From Conchiformibius steedae (GTDB taxonomy: Bacteria; Pseudomonadota; Gammaproteobacteria; Burkholderiales; Neisseriaceae), in NCBI RefSeq assembly GCF_014054725.1, contig NZ_CP059563.1:62001-126000 (forward strand): a stretch of 64,000 nt of DNA, read 5' to 3'. Each line of letters starts with the position of its first letter. Within the stretch, counting starts at the first letter, position 1. A program made the position numbers and the translations under genes. Below, in pieces: positions 29,082-62,354 of this stretch. The notes below the pieces were generated by a model that worked only from the letters and a program-made list of their open reading frames with translations, searched no databases and was not told the origin of the DNA.

Positions 29082-30602
29082 TTATTTCTTCACTTCAGTT
29101 TTAATAATGATTTCTGAAGGTTCAATGGTTTGCCAAGGTTCAGGCACGCTGGCAAACACTTCACGGCGAACAATCGGCGCACGCGCTGCGATTTCTGCCA
29201 AAGCTTCTTCTTCACTGCGGCGGAACGATTCGGCAGCGGCATCTTGCTCTGCTTGTTGGGGCGCAGCAAACGCATTTTCCGCTGCCACACGCGCCAATTG
29301 TTGCGCATCATCTGCGCCGTTGCTTTGCACCAATTCGGGTGTTTGCACGGCAACTTGGCTTTGCTCTGCCTGCAAACGCACCAACTCTTCGGCTTCGGCT
29401 TGTGCTTCCGCTTCCAAACGCGCTGCTTTTTCCAAAGCTGCTTGGGCTTCCGCTTCCAAACGGGCTTGTTCTTCCGCAGCAGCACGGGCTTCTGCTTCAG
29501 CCTGTAAACGCGCTTGTTCTTCGGCTTCAGCTTGTGCTTTGGCTTCTGCTTCTAAACGTGCCTGTTCTTCGGCTTCAGCTTGTGCTTTGGCTTCCGCTTC
29601 TAAACGGGCTTGCTCTTCCGCAGCAGCACGGGCTTCTGCTTCAGCCTGTAAACGGGCTTGTTCTTCCGCTTCAGCCTGTACTTTGGCTTCTGCTTCTAAA
29701 CGCGCTTGTTCTTCTGCTTCAGCTTTTGCCTTGGCTTCAGCTTCAGCGCGGGCTTGTTCCTCTGCTTCGGCTTGTGCTTTGGCTTCCGCTTCTAAACGAG
29801 CTTTCTCTTCGGCTTCTGCTGCCAAACGCGCTGCTTTTTCGGCTTCGGCTTTGGCTTCCATATCGGCTTTTAAACGGCTTTCCGCAACGGCTTTGCTGGT
29901 TTCCGCAGCTTTGGGCGCAGCAGTGTTTTCGCCTTCGCCCTCGCTTTTTTCGCCATCTTGAGCAAAATACGCCAAAATGGTTTCGCTGGCGCGTACTTTG
30001 TCGCCAATGGCAACGTTTGCCACCGCATCAACAGGCAGATACACATCTACACGCGAACCAAAACGGATAAAACCGTAACGTTCGCCGCGTACCATGCTTT
30101 CGCCCGCTTTGGCATAACACAAAATGCGGCGAGCTACCAAACCCGCTACTTGAACAAAAGTAATCTCGTGTCCTTGTTCGGTGGTCATCAACACAGCGTT
30201 GCGCTCGTTTTCGCTGCTGGCTTTGTCTAAAGCAGCGTTTAAAAACTTGCCTGCATTGTATTCCACATGAGTGATTTTGCCGTGCGCGGGGGCGCGTTGG
30301 GAATGCACATTAAAGACATTCATAAACACGCTGATTTTTAAAGCTTCGGTGTGGCGGTAAGGGTCGGTGGATTTTTCCACCACCACAATGCGCCCGTCGG
30401 CAGGACACAGCACGGCATCGGGGGTATCGGGAATATCGCGGGCGGGGTCGCGGAAAAATTGCAGGCAGAACAATACAAACAGCCAAAACGGTACCGACCA
30501 CCAGCCACACAACAGGGTCATCAACACGCTGGCAAGCAAGCCGCCGATAATAAACGGCCAGCCTTCTTGGGCAATAATGGTGTGCGGATAATAACGGTTC
30601 AT
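29082..30602 (-). CDS. psd: Phosphatidylserine decarboxylase with a very long repetitive C-terminal tail
   Basis: 506 residues from the ATG at 30602. Residues 1 to about 212 are a complete neisserial-type Psd: two N-terminal membrane helices, [24 protein letters not shown], and the self-cleavage/pyruvoyl site RFGSRVD (Gly182-Ser183). It makes phosphatidylethanolamine at the inner membrane. As I remember it, neisserial Psd has about 265 residues; this one adds about 290. The addition includes eight 16-residue Ala/Glu/Gln/Arg repeats (residues 265-392), TolA-like and predicted helical or coiled coil. The tail ends [11 protein letters not shown]. After self-cleavage it would be on the alpha chain with the pyruvoyl group. 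Confidence 0.9.
29427..29810 (-). repeat. Eight in-frame 48-bp tandem repeats in psd
   Basis: Eight units of 16 codons with consensus [16 protein letters not shown], from residues 265-280 to 377-392. Units vary ([16 protein letters not shown] occurs twice, [16 protein letters not shown] once). The length is a multiple of three, so copy-number changes would keep the frame. Confidence 0.85.
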
Positions 30603-45280: not shown

Positions 45281-47499
45281 GTGTGGGGCAATTGAGAAGC
45301 CTTGCCCAAAATGGCGAATTATCATCACAAAAATTAGTGCAAGCCCTGCAAAAAGCGGGCGATGGTGTCCGCGCTGATTTTGCCAAAACGGATTTTACCA
45401 TCGCGCAATCGTTTACTGTTTTACAAAACAAATTAACCGAGTTTGTCGGACAAACAGGCGAAAGTTCGGGCGCAATTAAGGTGTTTTCAGGCACTTTGCG
45501 CTTTTTGGGCGACAATATAGACAGCGTGGCAACCGTAGTCGGCGGTTTAGCTGCGCTGTCGCTAACCCGTTGGGCAATCACTTCGGCGGCGGGGTTGGTG
45601 CAGATGACCGCCGCCATGATTGCCACATCGGGCGCAGCGGGTACGGCAACGGCGGCGCAAACGGCGTTATCGGTTGCGGTTGCTCGCACGGGTACGGCTT
45701 CTGCGCTGGCATCGTTCCAAGTTCGCGGTTTTGCGGGGTCGTTGGCGGTGCTGCGTGTGGGCGCGGTAGCGGCAACAGGTGCGTTGTTGGGTTTGGCGGC
45801 AGCCACGCTTAAAGCCAGCTTTAACCTGCTCGCCAAAGGTGCGAGTGTCGCGGGTGGTGCATTAACGGCAATGTCCGCCCGCATCGGCGCGGCAGGCACG
45901 GTCGGCAAATTAGGCGCAATCGGCACGGCAGCAGCGGCAGCGGGGACAGGCTTATACTCGCTTTACAAATTTACCAAAGGCGAAGATGCGTCCAACTGGA
46001 TTAGTGATTCGGTGGACAAACTTTTTGGCTTGGACACGCAAGTAGAATCGCTGGGGACAAAGCTGTATGACTGGCTTAATCCCATTGAAAAGTTTAATGA
46101 AAAATTAGACGAAGCAGCGGTTAAAGCCCATGCGGTATCGGGCTGGCAATCCATTAGTGGCGCAATCGCCGCGCAAGGCGGTTTTGCCGAATATTCGGCA
46201 GGAAAACAAAGCGATGTGGGTTTGAGTAAAGCCATCAGCGACACCGTGCTGAAGTACCAAGAACAAGCGGCAGCGATTGGCAAAACCAAAGAGCAGATGG
46301 ATTTGCTGACTTTGACGGCGCAGAAAGAAGAACTGCTTAAAAAGAAAAAAATTGAGTTTGAAGAAAAGTTTAAGCACGAAAACGCCGATAACCGCGCCAA
46401 ACTGGTGCAGCAAAGTTTAGCCAATACTGCCGCCGCTTTAGATGCCGATATTAAAAGCGTTTCGGCAGCGATGAAGCAAGCAGAAACCGCCGCTAAAGCC
46501 AAAGCGGAAGCCGATAAAGCCGCCGAAATCGCCGCCAAAAACCGCCGCACCATTGACGAAAGCATGGCATCGCTGGCGCAGCAAATGGCAGAATTGGGCA
46601 AATCCAGCGAAGAAATCACGCAAATGCGTTTGGCGGCTGCGGGTGCAACGCAAGGCGAACTTGCCAAAACCCGCGCCATGCAAGACGTTATCCGTCAATA
46701 TGAGCGGCAAGCAGGCGTAATGAAAACCCTTGACGACTTGCGCGGTCAGTTGGAACGTGTCGGCAAATCCGCCGCCGAAATCAAGCTGTTGGATTTGAAA
46801 AATGCGGGCGCGACTGCCGAACAATTGTCGCAGGCAAGCGCATTACTGCAAGCCATCGCCGCTAAAGAGCAGGCACACCAAACCATCAGCACAGCGGGCG
46901 ATAAAATGCTGGGCGCGGCAAACATGATGCGCCAAGCTGCCGACAAATCGGTCAGCAGCGTTGATGAGCGTTATGCCGCGCTACAGGCAAAAGTGGCGCA
47001 ATCCCGCGCCGCCGATGCCGCCCGTGAAGCCGATATTCGGCAGCGCGAAAAAGCCAAAGCCGCCACGCAAGGCGGGTTTACCGATTTGCAATGGCAACTG
47101 TGGTCGCGGCAAACCTACGGGCATGATTGGTATGAGCGCACGGCAGAATACAAAGCCGCTGTTGCCGCTTCTAAACAACACGCCGAAGCCGCTACAGCCG
47201 CCGCCGCATCACTGCAACAGGCGGGCGGCAGCTTGGGCAATGCCGCCCACAATCTGCAAAACGCCGCTGATAAGCTGTTTCAGCAGGCAACCAGCAGTTT
47301 GCCCGCACCTGCTGCCGTACAAAACGGCGTACAAGGTGCGCCCAATATGGGGCAAATTACCCTAGATTTGCGCTTTCCCAACGGCAAAGCCCTAACCGGT
47401 ATTTTGTTTGGCAATCAAGAGTTTTTAAAGAAACTCAAAGAGCAGACCACCGCCAATGTGGAAAGTTGGCTGCTGGGTGTGCGCGATGCCGTGCGCTAA
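45280..47499 (+). pseudogene. Prophage tail tape measure protein, N-terminus lost
   Basis: 738 codons open from 45283. The visible protein begins in the middle of a tape-measure domain (SLAQNGELSSQKLVQALQKA then FAKTDFTIAQSFTVLQNKL), so about 200 residues of the usual N-terminus are missing. Hydrophobic helices (about residues 85-225) and a very long Ala/Gln/Lys coiled coil follow, then a natural end KEQTTANVESWLLGVRDAVR. The gene starts directly at the IS630 end, so it is truncated rather than GTG-initiated. The part upstream in the phage map (tube, G/GT) is now at 22636-23923. Confidence 0.8.
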
Positions 47500-47584
47500 C
47501 GGGATTTTTCCGCTGCATCAAGCCGTGTTTGGCTTGGTGCGGCGGAAGCCCTATAATCGGCTTTTCTGTTTGCGAGCCAATACC

Positions 47585-48430
47585 ATGATTAACCTGTATC
47601 AATTATTGGGCATCGCCCCCAATGCCACGCCCGACCAAATCCGCAAAGCCCTAACCACCGCCGCACAACAACAATCCCTGCCTTTAGACACCCTGCAAAA
47701 ATGCCAAACATGGCTATTAGACACAAGCAAGCGCAAGCAGTACAACGCCCGCTTGTTCGCCGAACACCCCGAAATTTTGGAAAACATGATGGCGCAAGCC
47801 AATCCGCCTGCCCCCGCTGAAACAGAAAAAACCGAACCCCCAACCAAACCATCACAAGCGAGCGGCAATCTGTATGAGTTATTGGGTGTCAAACCCAATG
47901 CGCCCGATGCCCTTATCCGCGATGCCATCAAACAAGCCGCCGAAAACGGCATGGATACCGATTTACTGGCACAAGCAAGGTTTCACTTGCTGCACAAAGA
48001 GCGGCGGACGAAATACAATCACAAAATCGGCATAAAAAGTCAAAAGAAACTATATTGGGGTATTGGCACAGTTTTAGCCATAATGGTTTGTATAGGCACT
48101 TGGAAATACATAAATCATTATGCTGAAAATGAAAAAATCAAAGCTATCAGCAAAGAAGTTTCTTTCCAGTTTAAAGACCCGCAAAGTGTTCAATTTGAAA
48201 ATCTAAAGCTGGTTTGGATTGAAAATCAATGGCTGTATTTATGCGGTTTTGTCAATGCTAAAAATGGCTTTGGTGCTTATACAGGGTTATCGCCATTTGC
48301 ATACGATACCACAATAAAATCATTGATTTTGCCTGATTCCAGTTACATTAACATTCCATCAAAAAAAGTAGAAAATCTCAAAATAATCAACAATGGCGAA
48401 GAAGCCATTAAGATAATTTGCCAACAGTAA
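47585..48430 (+). CDS. Prophage-encoded membrane protein with two J-domain-like repeats
   Basis: 281 residues from the ATG at 47585. Two similar segments, YQLLGIAPNATPDQIRKALT and YELLGVKPNAPDALIRDAIK, each followed by a helix ending R/K-K-x-Y-N (KRKQYNARL, RRTKYNHKI), resemble J-domains without the HPD motif. One transmembrane helix (about 160-178) precedes a C-terminal domain with FKDPQSVQFENLKL and LCGFVNAKNGFGAY, a motif I recall from uncharacterised secreted or membrane proteins. Probably a phage accessory (moron) gene; function unknown. Confidence 0.65.
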   Translation: MINLYQLLGIAPNATPDQIRKALTTAAQQQSLPLDTLQKCQTWLLDTSKRKQYNARLFAEHPEILENMMAQANPPAPAETEKTEPPTKPSQASGNLYELLGVKPNAPDALIRDAIKQAAENGMDTDLLAQARFHLLHKERRTKYNHKIGIKSQKKLYWGIGTVLAIMVCIGTWKYINHYAENEKIKAISKEVSFQFKDPQSVQFENLKLVWIENQWLYLCGFVNAKNGFGAYTGLSPFAYDTTIKSLILPDSSYINIPSKKVENLKIINNGEEAIKIICQQ

Positions 48431-48485
48431 AAACAGCGGCGCAGGACGGACGTTGTTTTTTGCCTATAGCGAGCTGCTACAATAG

Positions 48486-48508
48486 CAAAAACTCCCCTTT
48501 CGGGGCGT
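48486..48508 (-). terminator. Terminator of the small prophage membrane-protein gene
   Basis: On the minus strand CCCC-GAAA-GGGG is followed by a run of five T. It lies about 20 bp after the stop of the 59-residue gene. Confidence 0.6.
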
Positions 48509-48527
48509 TCTGTTACCGATTAGGCGG

Positions 48528-48707
48528 TTACTTAACCAAACCCAAAATAATCAAAGCAATGCAAACCAAGTAAATTGTCCAAATTTTGTAGCGGTGCTTT
48601 ACCAAAAAATCCATTTGGGCTTTGGTTTTTTGCCACTCAATACGGGTTTTTTCAATATCCTGATTGGTTTGTTCTAATTCGCGGCTAAATTTCTTGTAGT
48701 CAAACAT
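48528..48707 (-). CDS. Small prophage membrane protein
   Basis: 59 residues, ATG at 48707 with AAAAAGGTAAC upstream. It starts MFDYKKFSRELEQTNQDIEK, a charged coiled-coil helix, and ends with one transmembrane helix (IWTIYLVCIALIILGLVK). It sits next to the integrase on the same strand. Comparable small coil-plus-helix proteins occur in prophage lysogeny regions; function unknown. Confidence 0.65.
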   Translation of the reverse strand: MFDYKKFSRELEQTNQDIEKTRIEWQKTKAQMDFLVKHRYKIWTIYLVCIALIILGLVK

Positions 48708-48763
48708 AGCAGTTACCTTTTTTCAACCCCGCTTGCGCGGGCTGTTCAGTTTAGAACATCAGA

Positions 48764-49978
48764 TTAAAACTTGCGGCGGTACTTTTCGCGCAATGCCATC
48801 ACATCATTGCCCCACTTTTCTAAAGCATCGCGCCGCTCGTCCAAAAATTCGGCACGGTCGTAAGCGCGGTCAGTTTTATTTTTATCATGATGCGATAATA
48901 ATAAATCTCTAATTTCTTTGCTAATTTTATAGGTATCGCGCAAATAGGTGGTTGCCAAAGTCCGCAAACCGTGTGCAGTAGTCGGCAAATTCAGGGTATT
49001 GCGTAATTGCTGGCGGGCAGTTTCTACATCTTTCGGCTTTAAGAATCCCTGCCCCTCAAACAGGTAAATCCCCTTTACATTCAATTCCATTGCTTCACGG
49101 TAGATTTGTTTTAATGCGGTGCTTAACGGCACGATATGCGGGCGTGTTTTCATGCGTTCCAATGGTATTTCCCAAATTTCTTTTTCTAAATCAATCTCTT
49201 TAATAGGCGTTTCTGCTGCTTCATTGGGGCGTGTCATACTTAAAAGCTGCCAGTAAATCAGCAGTTTGTTTGATGGGGATAGTTTTTTTGTGGTTTCTAA
49301 ACGCTCAATAAGTAACGGCAAATCCTGTGGCAACAAAGCATCAAAATGTTTTTCTTTTGGCTTGTCAAATACTTGCTTGCCAATCAAACGCACGGGATTG
49401 TGTGTTACCGTACCATCTGCCACAAGATAGTCAAACATCAGCCCCAAACTGGTTTTAACCCGTTGCAGGTATTCCAACACGCCGCGTTTTTCCATCTTCC
49501 GCAACACTTTCACAATTTCTGCTGTGGTAAGGGTACGTACATCGCGCCCTTTAAAGTCGGGCAAGATATTGGCTTCAATCGCTGCCAATACCTGTGCGGC
49601 ATATTTCGGATTTTTACCGCGCCCCTGCTTTCCGCCCTGCCGCGCCCAGCGTTCATGCCATTCGGCGAGCCGATTTTCAAATCGGTATTGTGCGCCTGTG
49701 TCTGTGGCAATGGATTTAGGATTTTTACCCGCTGCCAGTTTCGCTTTGATTTCTGCCCGCCAATCGCGGGCATCAGCTAATGAGTGGTCGGGGTACATAC
49801 CAAGTGTGAGCGTGTCTTGTTTGCCATTTGGTCGGGTATAAGTGAGCCGCCACGATTTTTTGCCTGACGGCAGCACCCATAGGGCAAGCCCACCACCATC
49901 GGGCAATTTATACATTTTGGGTTTGGGTTTCGCGCCTTTGACTTGCGCGGGTGTGAGCGGGATAACGATTTTAGGCAT
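48764..49978 (-). CDS. int: Tyrosine recombinase, P4-type prophage integrase
   Basis: 404 residues from MPKIVIPLTPAQVKGAKP. N-terminal DUF4102-like arm-binding domain (KLPDGGGLALWVLPSGKKSW), then the catalytic domain with Arg (MTRPNEAAE), Lys/Arg region RMKTRPHIVPLS, HGLRTLA, the LSHHD histidine and nucleophile Tyr in RAYDRAEF. All catalytic positions look present, so it may be active. It lies 165 bp from tRNA-Ser, a usual attachment site for this class. Confidence 0.92.
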   Translation of the reverse strand: MPKIVIPLTPAQVKGAKPKPKMYKLPDGGGLALWVLPSGKKSWRLTYTRPNGKQDTLTLGMYPDHSLADARDWRAEIKAKLAAGKNPKSIATDTGAQYRFENRLAEWHERWARQGGKQGRGKNPKYAAQVLAAIEANILPDFKGRDVRTLTTAEIVKVLRKMEKRGVLEYLQRVKTSLGLMFDYLVADGTVTHNPVRLIGKQVFDKPKEKHFDALLPQDLPLLIERLETTKKLSPSNKLLIYWQLLSMTRPNEAAETPIKEIDLEKEIWEIPLERMKTRPHIVPLSTALKQIYREAMELNVKGIYLFEGQGFLKPKDVETARQQLRNTLNLPTTAHGLRTLATTYLRDTYKISKEIRDLLLSHHDKNKTDRAYDRAEFLDERRDALEKWGNDVMALREKYRRKF

Positions 49979-50066
49979 GGCATTGAGTTGGTATTTGAGC
50001 AATACCAGAAAAAATACCACAAAAAAAAGAAAAAGAGTGCAACGCTGTGAAAAGCATTGAAAAGTA

Positions 50067-55293: not shown

Positions 55294-57795
55294 TTAACTC
55301 AATATACGTTCTAACTTAGGAATTAAGAGCTCTATTTTCTCCCTAGATATCTCAACTGTTTTATCATCTTGAACACTCATAGGCGAACTTCCTATACTAA
55401 GCTTATATCTTTGAAGCGCTTTTAAAAAATAATCAATATTATCAGGTGTGTATCCATGTATATGCTTTAAGATGACCTCACATAAATATCTTATTTGTCG
55501 AAAAGAAGCACGTTTTTTATCTTTCTCAGTTACAACATCAAGATATTGAATTGCCTCTTTTAAATATGGTATTGTTTCCTCTGCCTTTTCCAGCAAGGAG
55601 CTTTTATAAATATAAAAACGTGCTAATTGAGTTTGCAAGTCATAGGTCTTATAACCCCTTTTCTTTCTGGCTAACTCCATCGCTGTATCTAAATATTTTT
55701 TTGCTAATTCTAAATGGGGTTGAGGTTCACTTTCCGCATACGCCAACCGTGCAATGGCATATTGCAACCAAAAATGTGGATTCTCAATTTCTAATCCAAA
55801 TCCTCGTAGTGTTTCATAATATTGAATCAATGAATTTCGTTTTTCTTTTTTAGTAGAGATCATCCGTTGTATATTTGTATATGTTGCTAACATTTTATAT
55901 GTTTTTCCATATTTATATGCCCCTTTTTGGAAATTATTTTGCTCCTTTTGCCCTAATGTAAAGCATCTCTTTGCAACTGTTGACAATATTTCAACCATTA
56001 AAGCTGGATTAGGGAATTGCTCAAAAAAGAATTGTGCAAATAATGTAGATTTTGGAGTAACAAAATTACCTTGGTTTCGTGTAAAGAAATGATTTAATAA
56101 CTTATCCTTTCCAAAATCAGGTTGAATTATACGGCTACTTTCTGTTATTTTATATAATACATTTTTTTCCACTTCCTCACCATAAAGGATATGTAACATA
56201 AAAACTGTTGTTAGGATCATTAATTTTTCCCTTTGAAGTTCGAGATCCTGAAATATTGGATTATATTTCTGAATAATAGATTCAGATTTTAATAACGACA
56301 ATAGCAAATGACTTAACTGTTTATTTGAGTCTGCTAGAAGCCTTGTTTTTTTATCAAATTTATTATTGGGATATAGTTCATCAAGTATAGGAATAAGAAA
56401 ACCATTATTCTCTAAAATTGATAAAAATTTTTCCCCTTGAGATCCGTTAAGTTTATCAGCGCAAATTTCACGAATCATATCAGATGATAGGCAGGGGGTA
56501 CGAAAAACTAATTCATTAAATGCCAATTCGTATTCATCAGTTCTTAATGAAACTATCACTTTATCATCTTGGCGAATTTTTTGACGTAAATAGCGTATAA
56601 GATTATGTATCTCATCTGTATAATTATTCACATCCAAAACAAATATAGCCTTTTGTTTTGTTGATAAAATAATATCAATATCTTCTAATGGGGAGTAAAA
56701 TGATTTATTAAGCGTGAAAACACCATATCCTTTGTGAAAATAAAATATACAAAGCTGCTCAACTAGTACAGTTTTCCCAACACCTAAATCCCCATATACA
56801 AAAATAAAACTTTTATCTATACTATCAAGATTTAAATCATTGATTCTATTAACAGCATAATCCTTGTAATCTTCAATTCTAACAACTTTCTCAAGTAAAC
56901 TTTGATTTTCATGCCCTAATATCAGGAACTTTTCTGTTTCTTCATTGACATTTAAATTTTTCTTTTCAGAGCGTATTAACTTGAACTCTTTAAAATTTAT
57001 ATAAACCTTTTCATTTGTTTCAGTACTATATACTGTATTGAGCTTTGAAAGATCTCTTGCAAAATTTTCCACTCCTTTGGTATAAACAGTTCCAAAATCA
57101 TCTAGGATTGGATTTTCATTATTTGAAATGAAGAAAGTTTTTTCCTTAAGAGCATCATGAAAATCAAAAAATAACTTTGCAATATCAAAATCATAACTTA
57201 AAGAGTACCCTACAAAAAATATAGCTTTGCTTGCAATGACTTCTGTAAAAAAACTTTCATACCATGGACTTTTTACAAACTGATCTGCTAAATAACTTAC
57301 ATTTGCTAGCTTAAAGTTATTTTCTAAATCATTGGGAGTGACTGTTTCAATATAACCATTAATATGAATAATATTCTTTGAGTTTGCATGAAAATCATTA
57401 GGATTCATCATCGGCGAAACTGCATTCCGTTCCAATCCCAAATGTTGTGCTTGTACTTCAAAAGAGTTATCATAATTTGTTGTAAAAATACTTCTCCAAG
57501 GTGTTTCAACAATGTCTTTGTAATAATTAGGTAATTTTTTTGTTTGAAAAATGGGCTTGATCAATGAAATCAAATCACCTTTACTTTTCTTTTTTAGAAA
57601 AATTTGTGTACTATATCCTAAATCAAAATCATTAGCTCCTGAAGGATCGATCTCTTTATAAATTAATTTCGATAACTCCCTACCTATGGGCATTTTTTCA
57701 TCATTCAGATTAATAACCTCAGATGACATACCAGCACCATAAAATAATAATGCCTGCCCAGATTTTGCATGATATAAAGCCTCTTCGTAATTCAT
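55294..57795 (-). CDS. SIR2-STAND NTPase-TPR protein, probable antiphage defence
   Basis: 833 residues, ATG at 57795 after AGGAG. N-terminal SIR2-like domain (about 1-250): LLFYGAGMSS (residues 17-25), TTNYDNSFE (105-113), IHINGYIE (143-150) and FFVGYSLSYDFD (193-204), the set expected for an NAD-cleaving SIR2 effector. Central P-loop NTPase: Walker A VYGDLGVGKT (333-342), Walker B-like KAIFVLDVNNY, then VIVSLRTDEYE. C-terminal helical TPR-like repeats (about 650-800). This layout matches the Avs/STAND class with a SIR2 effector: the TPR part senses a phage protein and the SIR2 part depletes NAD. The gene is far more AT-rich than its neighbours, so it was probably acquired. Confidence 0.8.
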   Translation of the reverse strand: MNYEEALYHAKSGQALLFYGAGMSSEVINLNDEKMPIGRELSKLIYKEIDPSGANDFDLGYSTQIFLKKKSKGDLISLIKPIFQTKKLPNYYKDIVETPWRSIFTTNYDNSFEVQAQHLGLERNAVSPMMNPNDFHANSKNIIHINGYIETVTPNDLENNFKLANVSYLADQFVKSPWYESFFTEVIASKAIFFVGYSLSYDFDIAKLFFDFHDALKEKTFFISNNENPILDDFGTVYTKGVENFARDLSKLNTVYSTETNEKVYINFKEFKLIRSEKKNLNVNEETEKFLILGHENQSLLEKVVRIEDYKDYAVNRINDLNLDSIDKSFIFVYGDLGVGKTVLVEQLCIFYFHKGYGVFTLNKSFYSPLEDIDIILSTKQKAIFVLDVNNYTDEIHNLIRYLRQKIRQDDKVIVSLRTDEYELAFNELVFRTPCLSSDMIREICADKLNGSQGEKFLSILENNGFLIPILDELYPNNKFDKKTRLLADSNKQLSHLLLSLLKSESIIQKYNPIFQDLELQREKLMILTTVFMLHILYGEEVEKNVLYKITESSRIIQPDFGKDKLLNHFFTRNQGNFVTPKSTLFAQFFFEQFPNPALMVEILSTVAKRCFTLGQKEQNNFQKGAYKYGKTYKMLATYTNIQRMISTKKEKRNSLIQYYETLRGFGLEIENPHFWLQYAIARLAYAESEPQPHLELAKKYLDTAMELARKKRGYKTYDLQTQLARFYIYKSSLLEKAEETIPYLKEAIQYLDVVTEKDKKRASFRQIRYLCEVILKHIHGYTPDNIDYFLKALQRYKLSIGSSPMSVQDDKTVEISREKIELLIPKLERILS

Positions 57796-57808: not shown

Positions 57809-60800
57809 TCAAAACATTCTTAACAACCGTTTAACCGATACTGGATGAGGCGTCTTCAACTCCTGCGCAAACAAGGAAACGCGCAATTCCTCTAACTGCC
57901 AAGCAAACGCCAACAATTCATCAAACACAGGCTGGTTTTGCCGTGTTAGTGATTGTAACTTATCGTTTAGCATCTGTTCAAGCTGGTTAATATCCGCTTC
58001 CCTTGCTTGGTCGCGGGCAGGATTGGCGCTATATTTTTCCATCCGCAGGGTCATGGCTTTTAGATACACGGGCAGCCGTTGCCATTGCGCCCACGGGGTA
58101 CGCGTGGCAAATCCTGCCGAAAGTAGCTGTTCCACACGGCGACGCAGCAATGGCGTTAGCGGATGTTTACCCAGTTTGCCGTTTAATTCGGTATAGGCGG
58201 CGGCGGTTTCCTGCAAATAGCGGCTCAGGGCTTCTTTTACCGCAGGCAAGCGGCTGCGGGCGCGTTTAATTTGTTCTTTAAAGGCTTTTTCACTGCGCGG
58301 CAGTTCGTCTTCGCCGATAAAGGCGCGGTCGCACACGGCTTGGGTCAAATCATCGCGCAGGGTGTCGGCAGGAATATGTTTCAGCAACATTGCTGCTTGG
58401 GTAAAACCTTGAATACCTTTGTTTAAATCTTTCATATGGTCTTTAAGCTGAAGCTGCATCAGCGCAATCACGCCTGCACGGTGGGCGTGTGCGGCAGCTT
58501 CGGGCGTATCAAACAGGCGTAAGGCGATGTTGCCGTTTTTTTCTTTTTGTAGGGCAAGGTAACCCGTGAGCTGCTGTTTGCCACGCGCAAATTTAATGCT
58601 TTCAGGCAGCGTGCCGATGCTCCAATCGGTCAAGTTATCCCGTTCAAATTCTTGGGTATTATCGCGGAAAGTCATGGCGGCGGCGTTGCCAAGCTGCTGT
58701 TGCAGTTGCGCCAAATCGCGCCCCGTTGCCAACTCCTGTCCGCCATCGTCCACCACGCGGATATTGGCGTAACAATGTTCGGGTAAACGCTGTGCAGCCC
58801 AATCGTCCAAATTAATCTGTTCCAACAAACGCATATCGCCCGTGTGTTTGGCAACGGCATGGGCAAGCTGCGGCAAAATCGGCTGGCTGTGGTCAGGTTC
58901 GGCAGCGAGAAAACGGGTAATAAAATCAGGCACAGGCACACATACGCGGCGGATTTGTTTGGGTAATGCCTTAATCAGCAACTGTAATTTTTCGCGTATC
59001 ATGCCCGGAACGAGCCATTCCAATTCGGCGGCGTTGACGCGGTTTAATACGGTTAGCGGTACGGTCAGCGTAACGCCGTCAAGCGGGTGATGCGGTTCAA
59101 AACGGTAATTTAGTTTAAATTTTCCGTCCTGATTACGCCAAAATTTGGGGAACTGCTCTTCGGTAATGTGCGCGGCGGCGTGCTGCATCAAATCTTCGCG
59201 CGACAAAAATAGTTGTTTTTCATCAACTGTTTTCAGCCACGCTTCAAAGGTGCGGATATCCGCCAGCGCAACCGTTTTGTTTTCCGATACTTGATAATTT
59301 TCAGGCAGCCTGTCGTGGTAAAACGCAAACAAGGCTTCTTCGTCCACCAACACATCTTGCTTGCGCGATTTATGCTCTAATTCGCTGATTTCACGAATCA
59401 GTTTTTTATTGTGGATAAAAAACGCTGCTTTTAAATCGCATTCCTGCGCCACCAATGCGCTGCGGATAAAAATTTCCCGCGCTTCTTCGGGCGCAACCTT
59501 GCCATAAGCAATCGGACGGCGCGGCAAAACCGTTAAACCATAAAGGGTTACGCGCTCACTTGCCACCACTTCGCCACGTTTTTGTTCCCAATGCGGCTCA
59601 AAATAATGATAGCGCACCAAATGCGGCGCTTCCGCTTCAATCCATTCGGGCTTGATTTCCGCCACATCGCGGGCATAAAGTTTTGTCGTTTCAGTCAGTT
59701 CCGCCGCCATCACCCATTTGGGTTTGGCTTTAAACAAAGACGACGCGGGAAACAAATGAAAATGGCTGCCGCGTGCGCCTGTGTAGTCGTGTCCTTCAGG
59801 CGACTTCATACCCACGTTGGCGATTAAGCCCGTTAATAAAGCGCGGTGGATTTGTTCGTAGCCTGCGGCTTTTTTGGCACGGATTTGGGCGCGATGCTGT
59901 TTTTTATCCAATTGTTTTTGTTTTAATTTGGCGGATAAATCTTGGTCTTGTACCGTTTCGTTGGCTTGCAGTTGCGCCACTTTTTCAGGCTGCCTGAACG
60001 CGCGTTCCTTTTCCACCAAACCCATTTCTACCGCAATATCAGCCAGTTGCTTATGCAATTCGCGCCACTCGCGCATACGCAAATGCGATAAAAAATACTG
60101 ATGGCACCATTGCACCAACTGCTTATTGGTCAAGCCCTTATCACGCTCGCGCTGGAAAGAATCCCAAATATTCAAATAACTTAAAAAATCCGACTGCTTA
60201 TCGGCAAAACGCTCATGCGCCTTATTCGCTGCTTCACGCGCTTCCAAAGGGCGTTCGCGCGGGTCTTGAATCGACAAGGCAGACACAATCACCAGCATTT
60301 CCGCCACGCAATCATGCTTTTGCGCCGCCAACAGCATACGCGAGATTTTCGGGTCTATCGGCAGGCGCGACATCTGCTCGCCTGTTTTGCTTAATTGGTT
60401 TTTGTCGTTTACCGCGCCAAGTTCTTGTAAAACTTGAAAACCATCGTTGATATAACGCTGGTCGGGCGCTTCTAAAAACGGAAACGCCGCCACATCGCCC
60501 AATTTCAGCGCCGCCATACGTAAAATCACCGCCGCCAAATTGCTGCGGATAATTTCGGGGTCGGTAAACGGTGGGCGTTGTTCAAAATCTTCTTGCGAAT
60601 ACAAACGGATGCATACGCCTGCCGATACGCGCCCGCAACGCCCCGACCGTTGCCGCGCCGCTGCCTGCGAGATTTTTTCAACGTGCAACTGCTCCACTTT
60701 TGCCCGCGCCGAATAGCGTTTCACCCGCGCCAAACCCGTATCAATCACATAGCGGATGCGCGGCACGGTTAGCGAGGTTTCAGCGACGTTGGTGGCAAGA

Positions 60801-61792
60801 ATAATGCGGCGCGTGTCGCCCTGCGGATGGAAAATTTTGTGCTGCTCTTGCGCGGAAAGTCGCGCAAATAGCGGTAAAATATCATCATTTTTACGCAAGG
60901 GCGATTTGCGTAAGGCTTCGGCAGTCTCGCGGATTTCGCGCTCACCCGGTAGAAAAACCAAAATATCGCCTGTGCCAAAACGCGCCAATTCGTCCGCCGC
61001 ATCCACAATGGCATCGGCGGTTTCTATTTCTGCTTCATCTTCATCATCGGCTTGCAAGGGGCGATACAGCACGTCCACAGGATAGGTGCGCCCGCTTACC
61101 TCAATCACGGGTGCGCCGTTAAAATGCTGGGAAAAACGCTCGGCATCAATGGTCGCTGATGTGATAATGACTTTTAAATCAGGTCGCTGTGGCAGAATTT
61201 GTTTCAGATAGCCAAGTAGGAAATCAATATTCAGGCTGCGCTCGTGCGCTTCGTCAATAATAATGGTGTCGTAAGCGGTAAGAAAACGGTCGGTTTGGGT
61301 TTCCGCCAGCAAAATGCCGTCTGTCATCAGTTTGATGCTGGCATCGCGTGCGGTGTGGTCGGTAAAACGCACTTTATAACCAACGGCTTGCCCAATATTC
61401 TGCCCCAGCTCTTCAGCAATGCGTTCCGCCACAGAGCGCGCCGCCAAACGGCGCGGTTGGGTATGCCCGATTAAACCTGCCGCGCCGCGCCCCAATTCCA
61501 AACAGATTTTCGGCAGCTGCGTGGTTTTACCCGAACCCGTTTCGCCACAAATAATGGTAACTTGGTTAGCGGCAATGGCATCGCGGATTTCGGCGCGTTT
61601 TTCATGCACGGGCAGGCTGTCGTCAAACTGCGGTTTGGGCAAGTTTTGTAGGCGTTTTTGGTAAATTTCGTGGGATTTTTGGTATTTTTGTTGAACTTTT
61701 GCCAAACCGCCGAATTTTTGCGGCTGTTTAAACGCACGTTGTAAGAAATAACGGTCTTTGGCAAGCACTTGGGATAAATCGGGCTGCTGCAT
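57809..61792 (-). CDS. hrpA: ATP-dependent RNA helicase HrpA
   Basis: 1327 residues, DEAH-box helicase. Walker A IICGETGSGKTTQLPK (residues about 80-95), GHTQPRRLAARSVA, DEAHERSLNIDFLL, VIITSATIDAERF, and RQRSGRCGRVSAGVCIRLYS (motif VI). A long C-terminal DUF3418-type region follows. HrpA resolves stalled ribosomes in some proteobacteria. It contains two uptake sequences. It ends convergent to nothing: the SIR2-STAND gene starts 13 bp after its stop on the same strand. Confidence 0.95.
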   Translation of the reverse strand: MQQPDLSQVLAKDRYFLQRAFKQPQKFGGLAKVQQKYQKSHEIYQKRLQNLPKPQFDDSLPVHEKRAEIRDAIAANQVTIICGETGSGKTTQLPKICLELGRGAAGLIGHTQPRRLAARSVAERIAEELGQNIGQAVGYKVRFTDHTARDASIKLMTDGILLAETQTDRFLTAYDTIIIDEAHERSLNIDFLLGYLKQILPQRPDLKVIITSATIDAERFSQHFNGAPVIEVSGRTYPVDVLYRPLQADDEDEAEIETADAIVDAADELARFGTGDILVFLPGEREIRETAEALRKSPLRKNDDILPLFARLSAQEQHKIFHPQGDTRRIILATNVAETSLTVPRIRYVIDTGLARVKRYSARAKVEQLHVEKISQAAARQRSGRCGRVSAGVCIRLYSQEDFEQRPPFTDPEIIRSNLAAVILRMAALKLGDVAAFPFLEAPDQRYINDGFQVLQELGAVNDKNQLSKTGEQMSRLPIDPKISRMLLAAQKHDCVAEMLVIVSALSIQDPRERPLEAREAANKAHERFADKQSDFLSYLNIWDSFQRERDKGLTNKQLVQWCHQYFLSHLRMREWRELHKQLADIAVEMGLVEKERAFRQPEKVAQLQANETVQDQDLSAKLKQKQLDKKQHRAQIRAKKAAGYEQIHRALLTGLIANVGMKSPEGHDYTGARGSHFHLFPASSLFKAKPKWVMAAELTETTKLYARDVAEIKPEWIEAEAPHLVRYHYFEPHWEQKRGEVVASERVTLYGLTVLPRRPIAYGKVAPEEAREIFIRSALVAQECDLKAAFFIHNKKLIREISELEHKSRKQDVLVDEEALFAFYHDRLPENYQVSENKTVALADIRTFEAWLKTVDEKQLFLSREDLMQHAAAHITEEQFPKFWRNQDGKFKLNYRFEPHHPLDGVTLTVPLTVLNRVNAAELEWLVPGMIREKLQLLIKALPKQIRRVCVPVPDFITRFLAAEPDHSQPILPQLAHAVAKHTGDMRLLEQINLDDWAAQRLPEHCYANIRVVDDGGQELATGRDLAQLQQQLGNAAAMTFRDNTQEFERDNLTDWSIGTLPESIKFARGKQQLTGYLALQKEKNGNIALRLFDTPEAAAHAHRAGVIALMQLQLKDHMKDLNKGIQGFTQAAMLLKHIPADTLRDDLTQAVCDRAFIGEDELPRSEKAFKEQIKRARSRLPAVKEALSRYLQETAAAYTELNGKLGKHPLTPLLRRRVEQLLSAGFATRTPWAQWQRLPVYLKAMTLRMEKYSANPARDQAREADINQLEQMLNDKLQSLTRQNQPVFDELLAFAWQLEELRVSLFAQELKTPHPVSVKRLLRMF
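59300..59311 (-). repeat. DNA uptake sequence, Simonsiella dialect
   Basis: TTCAGGCAGCCT on the plus strand is the exact complement of AGGCTGCCTGAA; inside hrpA. Confidence 0.8.
59987..59998 (+). repeat. DNA uptake sequence, Simonsiella dialect
   Basis: Exact AGGCTGCCTGAA within hrpA, 12 of 12 bases. Confidence 0.8.
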
Positions 61793-61910: not shown

Positions 61911-62354
61911 TTATTCGGCAGCAGCGGCTTCTTCTTGCGATTGCTGATACATGGCATCAAAGTTAATCGGTGCCAGCAATACGGGCGGGAAGCCTGCGCG
62001 GGTTACGGTAGAAGATACTGTTTCACGCGCATAGGGGAACAGGATGTTCGGGCAGGCGACGCCCAACAGGATTTTAATGTCTTCCTCGGGGATGTTGGAC
62101 AGGCGGAAAATACCTGCTTGATTGACTTCGCTCAAAAATACCACGCGTTCGTCTTTTAAAGTGGCGGTAATGGTAACGGTAATGCCGCACTCATAAAAGC
62201 CGTCTTCCACTTTTTGGCTGTGGGTGGCCACACGCATATCCACTTCGGGGGTTTCCGATTCCAAAAAGATTTGCGGGGCGTGGGGTACTTCTAAAGACAA
62301 ATCTTTAACATACAGTTTCTCAATGCTAAAAACGGGTTGGTCTTGTTCGCTCAT
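61911..62354 (-). CDS. secB: Protein-export chaperone SecB
   Basis: 147 residues. Tetrameric chaperone that keeps Sec substrates unfolded and hands them to SecA. Family sequence: [31 protein letters not shown]-like [33 protein letters not shown] and [18 protein letters not shown]. Complete. It lies upstream of hrpA on the same strand with a gap of 118 bp. Confidence 0.96.

Follow-up and report, generated by a model that had tools for sequence, protein, structure and literature searches.

Why does a phosphatidylserine decarboxylase (Psd) of Conchiformibius steedae continue for 294 residues beyond its catalytic core, with about eight 16-residue repeats on the way? Conchiformibius, Alysiella and Simonsiella are described, in the accessible text of PMC9395523, as the multicellular longitudinally dividing (MuLDi) Neisseriaceae. 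They form filaments of cells lying side by side that split lengthwise, and a membrane enzyme with an unusual tail in such an organism raises the question of what the tail is for. The gene is located in a window of 64,000 nucleotides, by which we mean the whole stretch of DNA analysed here (positions 62,001 to 126,000 of contig NZ_CP059563.1). Its minus-strand frame is open from ATG and encodes 506 residues (Table 1). The open frame, the profile matches and the repeats located by TRF confirm a preliminary description of the locus as a complete Psd core with a repeat tail. That description closed the protein with a further acidic segment and so left something out: there is no net charge on the final 40 residues, which constitute a conserved motif.

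Table 1. Features of the psd gene; positions are those of the window, residues those of the encoded protein.
Feature	Position	Strand	Basis
psd gene: Psd core, helical arm and conserved C-terminal motif	29082..30602	-	open frame, NF003680, PF02666
Psd catalytic core, residues 1-212	29967..30602	-	PF02666, NF003680 and TIGR00164 matches stop at 210-214; AF2
Hydrophobic membrane segment, residues 13-50	30453..30566	-	hydropathy; AF2 helix 8-50
Gly182-Ser183, predicted self-cleavage site giving the pyruvoyl group (RFGSR)	30054..30059	-	invariant in alignment A3
Flexible linker, residues 213-243	29874..29966	-	AF2 pLDDT 35-67 by block
Long charged helix (predicted), residues 244-414 (171 residues)	29361..29873	-	AF2; i+3/i+4 charge pairs
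Eight 16-residue repeats, residues 265-392, last one degenerate	29427..29810	-	TRF period 48; unit list
Second linker and start of short helix (predicted), residues 415-466	29205..29360	-	AF2
Conserved C-terminal motif, residues 467-506 (40 residues)	29085..29204	-	alignment, codon comparison, family distribution

The decarboxylase core and the length of its tail

The identification as Psd was borne out by both profiles. Residues 1-214 match NCBIfam NF003680 at 2e-110 (367.3 bits against a cut-off of 262), and the protein is the single PF02666 match in its genome (1.1e-43; 149.7 bits against a curated cut-off of 22). None of G182-S183, D69 and H100 varies among the 32 rows of alignment A3. In E. 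coli Psd the catalytic residues are D90, H144 and S254, with self-cleavage at Ser254 of an LGST motif, as stated in the accessible part of PMC7952604; D69, H100 and S183 would be their equivalents, the local motif being FGSR here and not LGST. All 19-residue hydropathy windows starting at residues 13-32 have means above 1.4. Of the 21 ten-residue blocks that make up the core in the AF2 model, 16 reach a pLDDT of at least 80. Judged from its sequence, the Psd looks intact and membrane-anchored, and synthesis of phosphatidylethanolamine (PE) is predicted. Assuming cleavage at Gly182-Ser183, the calculated mass of the pyruvoyl-bearing alpha chain is 34.7 kDa, compared with 3.4 kDa if the protein ended at residue 214, in agreement with the earlier proposal that the tail stays on this chain. 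A PDB sequence search with the core as query gave no match at 0.001. The PDB fold search with the full model returned low TM-scores, the best (0.21/0.30) for PsiD decarboxylase, followed by LytM-domain proteins, and E. coli Psd was not among the best 50 matches listed.

Psd proteins of the PRK05305 class (NF003680, PF02666) have the same core, above curated cut-offs, and the same invariant Gly-Ser site, but in the frames read outside the family they end directly after the core, whereas the protein of the window adds a 294-residue arm with its motif. Counted from the FGS[R/C] site, the tail comprises 322 residues. In Neisseriaceae other than Conchiformibius and Alysiella, the frames read have 30-133 residues after the FGSR site; those read from beyond the family have 29-42, one scan there having passed over the G046 frame. 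The remaining same-class frames of the family are at most 322 residues as a whole, so their tails are bounded at about 138. The tail had been called a strong expansion of a short neisserial enzyme, and both halves of that statement hold, since 11 named Neisseria/Bergeriella loci encode 240-281 residues with short tails. Long open frames in G048, G058 and G060, outside the family, were rejected as counterparts; they are upstream extensions with tails of only 29-42 residues.

In Neisseria and its relatives, many short-tailed Psd have a variable Pro/Ala linker and, at the very end, a charged stretch that recurs (e.g. IEASADKVRAAVEKEF). The enzymes of Neisseria, Eikenella and Snodgrassella likewise have a variable linker after the core and often a short helix-like stretch at the end, but the terminal sequence is a different one, without the motif of Conchiformibius and Alysiella. 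A design of linker plus end piece may therefore predate the MuLDi form.

An assembly artefact is an unlikely source of the tail, because the window is part of a 2.10 Mb contig in a 3-contig genome, and because in the one-contig Alysiella genome G011 the tail is longer still and lies within a single open frame. In two draft assemblies the arm breaks the contig (Conchiformibius sp. MAG, G001) or holds a run of N (Alysiella crassa DSM 2578, G019).

Other features of the window deserve mention. An 833-residue protein at 55294-57795 (minus strand) joins SIR2-like and STAND NTPase domains (PF13289, PF25199), a pairing reminiscent of phage defence, and had no PADLOC match. A tape-measure protein (PF20155) and a phage integrase (PF00589) at 45283-50020 suggest a prophage or a remnant of one. 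The helicase at 57809-61792 (minus strand), which we take to be HrpA-like, matched its relatives in some other Neisseriaceae (G002, G023 and others) in separated pieces within open frames of up to 2517 residues, pointing to large insertions.

A variable arm and a conserved end

By TRF, a 48-bp unit recurs 7.9 times at 29439-29816 (77% matches) and a 144-bp super-unit 2.1 times at 91%; the latter fits a fairly recent duplication. Identity at lag 16 is 0.60 in the repeat, and the differences among the seven units compared are concentrated at third codon positions. From core to motif the arm measures 254 residues here, built on a 16-residue unit. That of G011 has 380 residues and a unit of 20, and that of A. 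crassa about 327, its run of N included. Since the repeat runs at lag 16 here and at lag 20 in G011, the spacer appears to have turned over while the end stayed. The flexible linker before it contains ESRLKAD, a stretch with counterparts ETRLKAD and AARLKAD in Alysiella but none in the visible part of G001.

Within the longest Pro/Gly-free stretch of each protein, attracting minus repelling charge pairs at i+3/i+4 amount to 47 here (-5 +/- 7.5 when shuffled; 0 of 2000 shuffles reach 47) and to 71 in G011 (-1 +/- 8.5; 0 of 2000 reach 71). With A. crassa included, an excess of opposite charges at these spacings is found in three of three proteins, at 0 of 2000 shuffles each. The hydrophobic resultant at 102.86 degrees, a value without shuffle control, is 0.238 (19 residues) here and 0.096 (29 residues) in G011; for A. 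crassa it is 0.221 at 102.86 and 0.795 at 100 degrees, from six residues, too few to judge. With no clear heptad stripe apparent in the two long arms, the repeat looks more like a single alpha-helix (SAH) than a coiled coil, for which the preliminary description had advised a prediction; the charge pattern also points to such a helix. SAH domains are known from other proteins, for example INCENP, according to the accessible text of PMC4571873. The arm shares with them the dense i/i+4 Glu-Lys/Arg pairs and, as it seems, the lack of a clear heptad, but they are mainly E/K/R, whereas the arm is Ala-rich and its helix a predicted one.

AF2 models one helix over residues 244-414, with pLDDT of 80-95 by block at 261-410 and 55-74 before that, although it is prone to high confidence on Ala/Glu/Lys-rich repeats. 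The predicted helix would be about 25.7 nm long (171 residues at 1.5 A per residue), which fits the role of spacer suggested earlier. Residues 414-430 fall below pLDDT 50, a helix follows at 432-473, and 477-506 are again below 50; the motif stands in only two rows of the AF2 alignment, so its modelled disorder is weak evidence. Both the helix and the unfolded motif are accordingly predicted features.

The long Ala/Glu/Lys-rich helix of TolA domain II also lies behind an N-terminal membrane segment. The arm is like it in composition and in this segment, but has no TolA family match and is probably cytoplasmic. The term TolA-like, used for the tail before, thus applies to composition only: TolA families are missing from the Pfam results both for the whole protein (E 0.001) and for the tail (E 10). 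What Pfam does list for the tail, bactofilin at E 0.16 for instance, does not reach the cut-off and resembles low-complexity noise.

The end of the protein behaves differently from the arm. Identity of the motif to that of the window's protein is 94% in G001 (35 residues only, at a contig end), 82% in G019 and 72% in G011, and 22 columns are invariant across the four sequences. Over 36 codons, Conchiformibius and A. crassa have 13 identical, 18 synonymous and 5 non-synonymous codons, with 5/4/22 differences by codon position. A. crassa and G011 differ by 14 synonymous and 6 non-synonymous codons, and the weakest pair, Conchiformibius and G011, by 8 and 7. At the level of sequence, the terminal segment is conserved, while the preceding arm changes its repeat unit and its length from one genus to the other. 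FtsZ likewise has a variable linker and then a short conserved C-terminal docking peptide. The common design is a variable spacer with a short conserved terminal peptide, for which docking would have to be assumed here; the protein and the peptide are different ones, and the linker is predicted to be helical, whereas that of FtsZ is disordered.

Distribution, copy number and the absence of MraZ

Of 83 Neisseriaceae genomes searched, four contain the motif, none with an E above 6.2e-16: 2 of 2 Conchiformibius (G000, the window's genome, and G001, assigned to one genus) and 2 of 2 Alysiella (G011 and G019, likewise assigned to one genus), versus 0 of 79 genomes of other genera at E <0.3. Ten other genomes match at E 0.338-1.51, which we read as chance; a 668-residue frame of G004, at E 1.5, was set aside as presumably an FtsY-like protein. 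Neither Simonsiella, the third MuLDi genus, nor a named Kingella is among the 80 named loci of the family survey. Across 399 genomes of the order, profile A2 of the motif matched five. One was the window's own genome (3.4e-29), and the other four matches, partial and at E 0.0049-0.0088, were dropped as chance, the one that was read lying in a frame we take to be EarP. Profile A2 does find G001, G011 and G019, which are absent from these matches and presumably lie outside the 399-genome sample. Secondary matches in the own genome (E 0.18, 0.6, 0.7 and 8) are unconvincing, the first three lying in frames that are presumably terminase-like and LysR-like and in a spurious-looking one. A pattern scan of viral_contigs matched 14 stretches, of which none was confirmed.

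Psd of either class is present in 79 of the 83 genomes. The remaining four are G018, rated 100% complete, and three genomes that are 58-68% complete. PE synthesis in G018 is unexplained, or its gene was masked or missed. Both Alysiella encode the tethered Psd plus an E. coli-type Psd; Conchiformibius encodes the tethered Psd alone. The E. coli-type Psd of Alysiella groups with that of its relative G004 (99/95), so the tethered copy is kept beside an ordinary one, which speaks for a special task. In Conchiformibius, the tethered Psd is the sole one and therefore must also make bulk lipid, which counts against the tether reading set out below.

In the Psd core tree (39 chosen loci; Silvimonas, two Snodgrassella, ESL0693 and Laribacter, five in all, were left out), the tethered core of Alysiella groups with Conchiformibius (100/99). 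The genome tree, which is of SerS only (29 of 30 genomes, the partial G028 copy left out), joins Alysiella to G004 (100/99) to the exclusion of Conchiformibius, on a poorly supported backbone. G004 itself has MraZ and only an E. coli-type Psd. These sequences are compatible both with transfer of the gene between MuLDi lineages and with an ancestral gene that the two genera share and their relatives lost. The accessible text of PMC10715097 places Alysiella and Simonsiella within Kingella, and Conchiformibius in the same wider clade. Compared with window positions 20001-42000, both Alysiella neighbourhoods share psd only (in G019 just 1.3 kb is available on one side), and that of G001 has psd and tyrS in common.

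Longitudinal division and multicellularity have been tied to the loss of mraZ, rapZ, dgt and gloB, the gain of amiC2-cdsA, and changes in MreB and FtsA; mraZ is among four genes exclusively absent in MuLDi compared with rods, and the MreB and FtsA of MuLDi cluster similarly (PMC9395523, accessible text). In our set, PF02381 (MraZ) is absent from seven of 83 Neisseriaceae genomes. Among the 71 genomes that are >=90% complete and <=5% contaminated, the MraZ-less ones are G000, G001, G011 and G019, exactly the four carriers of the motif; the other three MraZ-less genomes are 60-83% complete and do not have it. This association concerns two genera and not four independent cases: it amounts to at most two cases, or one if the gene was shared, and the coincidence may be shared history. 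The preliminary description had missed the motif, the fact that in this set only Conchiformibius and Alysiella have it, and its coincidence with the absence of MraZ; it otherwise stands as regards the Psd, the short-tailed comparison, the alpha-chain tail and the spacer.

A possible tether for lipid synthesis

The C-terminus of this Psd may have evolved into a tether, in which a stiff single alpha-helix about 25 nm long carries a conserved peptide at its end. Self-cleavage would leave the arm on the catalytic alpha chain, and the peptide would dock on a cytoplasmic or inner-membrane partner, so that the enzyme, or the PE made by it, is held at a set distance from that partner, plausibly a component of the division or cell-wall apparatus of the MuLDi Neisseriaceae. 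We infer the docking, the cytoplasmic side and the link to division, the side because the E. coli enzyme is active at the cytoplasmic face of the membrane (PMC7952604, accessible text). In our judgement it is an even bet that this membrane enzyme, by way of its stiff arm and docking peptide, positions PE synthesis at a partner plausibly belonging to this apparatus. We are considerably more doubtful about the most specific form of this reading, where the partner would be a septal or cytoskeletal one specific to MuLDi (e.g. the altered MreB or FtsA), PE would be made at the growing guillotine-like longitudinal septum, and the gene would have been passed between the two MuLDi lineages together with the trait.

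The arm and motif might instead organise lipid synthesis itself, the motif binding another lipid enzyme (e.g. phosphatidylserine synthase) or a lipid surface, in a metabolon that is not directly tied to division. The dependence of bulk synthesis on the tethered enzyme in Conchiformibius, which has no other Psd, speaks for this, as does the position of amiC2 next to the phospholipid gene cdsA in all MuLDi species (PMC9395523, accessible text). Other Neisseriaceae manage with short tails, however, and a net-neutral motif does not suggest simple binding to acidic lipids; we hold such a metabolon to be unlikely. The chances are similarly low that the tail is a low-complexity expansion of little function of its own, with the motif kept for stability, folding or turnover, for example as a protease-protecting cap. 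The fast-changing sequence of the arm would agree with that, and so would the variable Ala/Pro-rich tails of other Neisseriaceae, many of which end in a short charged helix-like stretch. Against it are the 22 invariant columns over two genera together with the mainly third-position codon change relative to A. crassa, the low pLDDT of a motif that is not confidently placed on the core, and its absence from short-tailed enzymes.

The periplasm has a width of the order of 25 nm, the same order as the length of the predicted helix, and the hydrophobic segment extends over 38 residues. A TolA-like protein could be built from these elements, with a single N-terminal crossing, the catalytic domain outside, and the arm reaching to the wall or outer membrane and helping sister cells to stay attached side by side. 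However, a segment of this length could form a hairpin, the TolA family is absent from the Pfam scans, and the E. coli enzyme works on the cytoplasmic side (PMC7952604, accessible text), all of which makes this arrangement very improbable.

The enzyme as such is known, and its tethered form with the motif appears undescribed in the literature searched. Phosphatidylserine decarboxylase was not found together with Alysiella, Conchiformibius or Simonsiella, and a search for bacterial Psd with a C-terminal extension and a coiled coil gave nothing related, going by titles. The words 'phosphatidylserine' and 'psd' occur 0 times in the main text of the MuLDi paper, as far as accessible (PMC9395523). 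A comparison of gene presence would probably miss the tethered Psd, because the core enzyme is common to rods.

The tethered Psd is a candidate contributor to the rise of longitudinal division and multicellularity in oral Neisseriaceae. Its 40-residue peptide is a ready bait for a putative partner, and if the tether with its docking peptide holds true, lipid synthesis would be connected to the site of septum growth.
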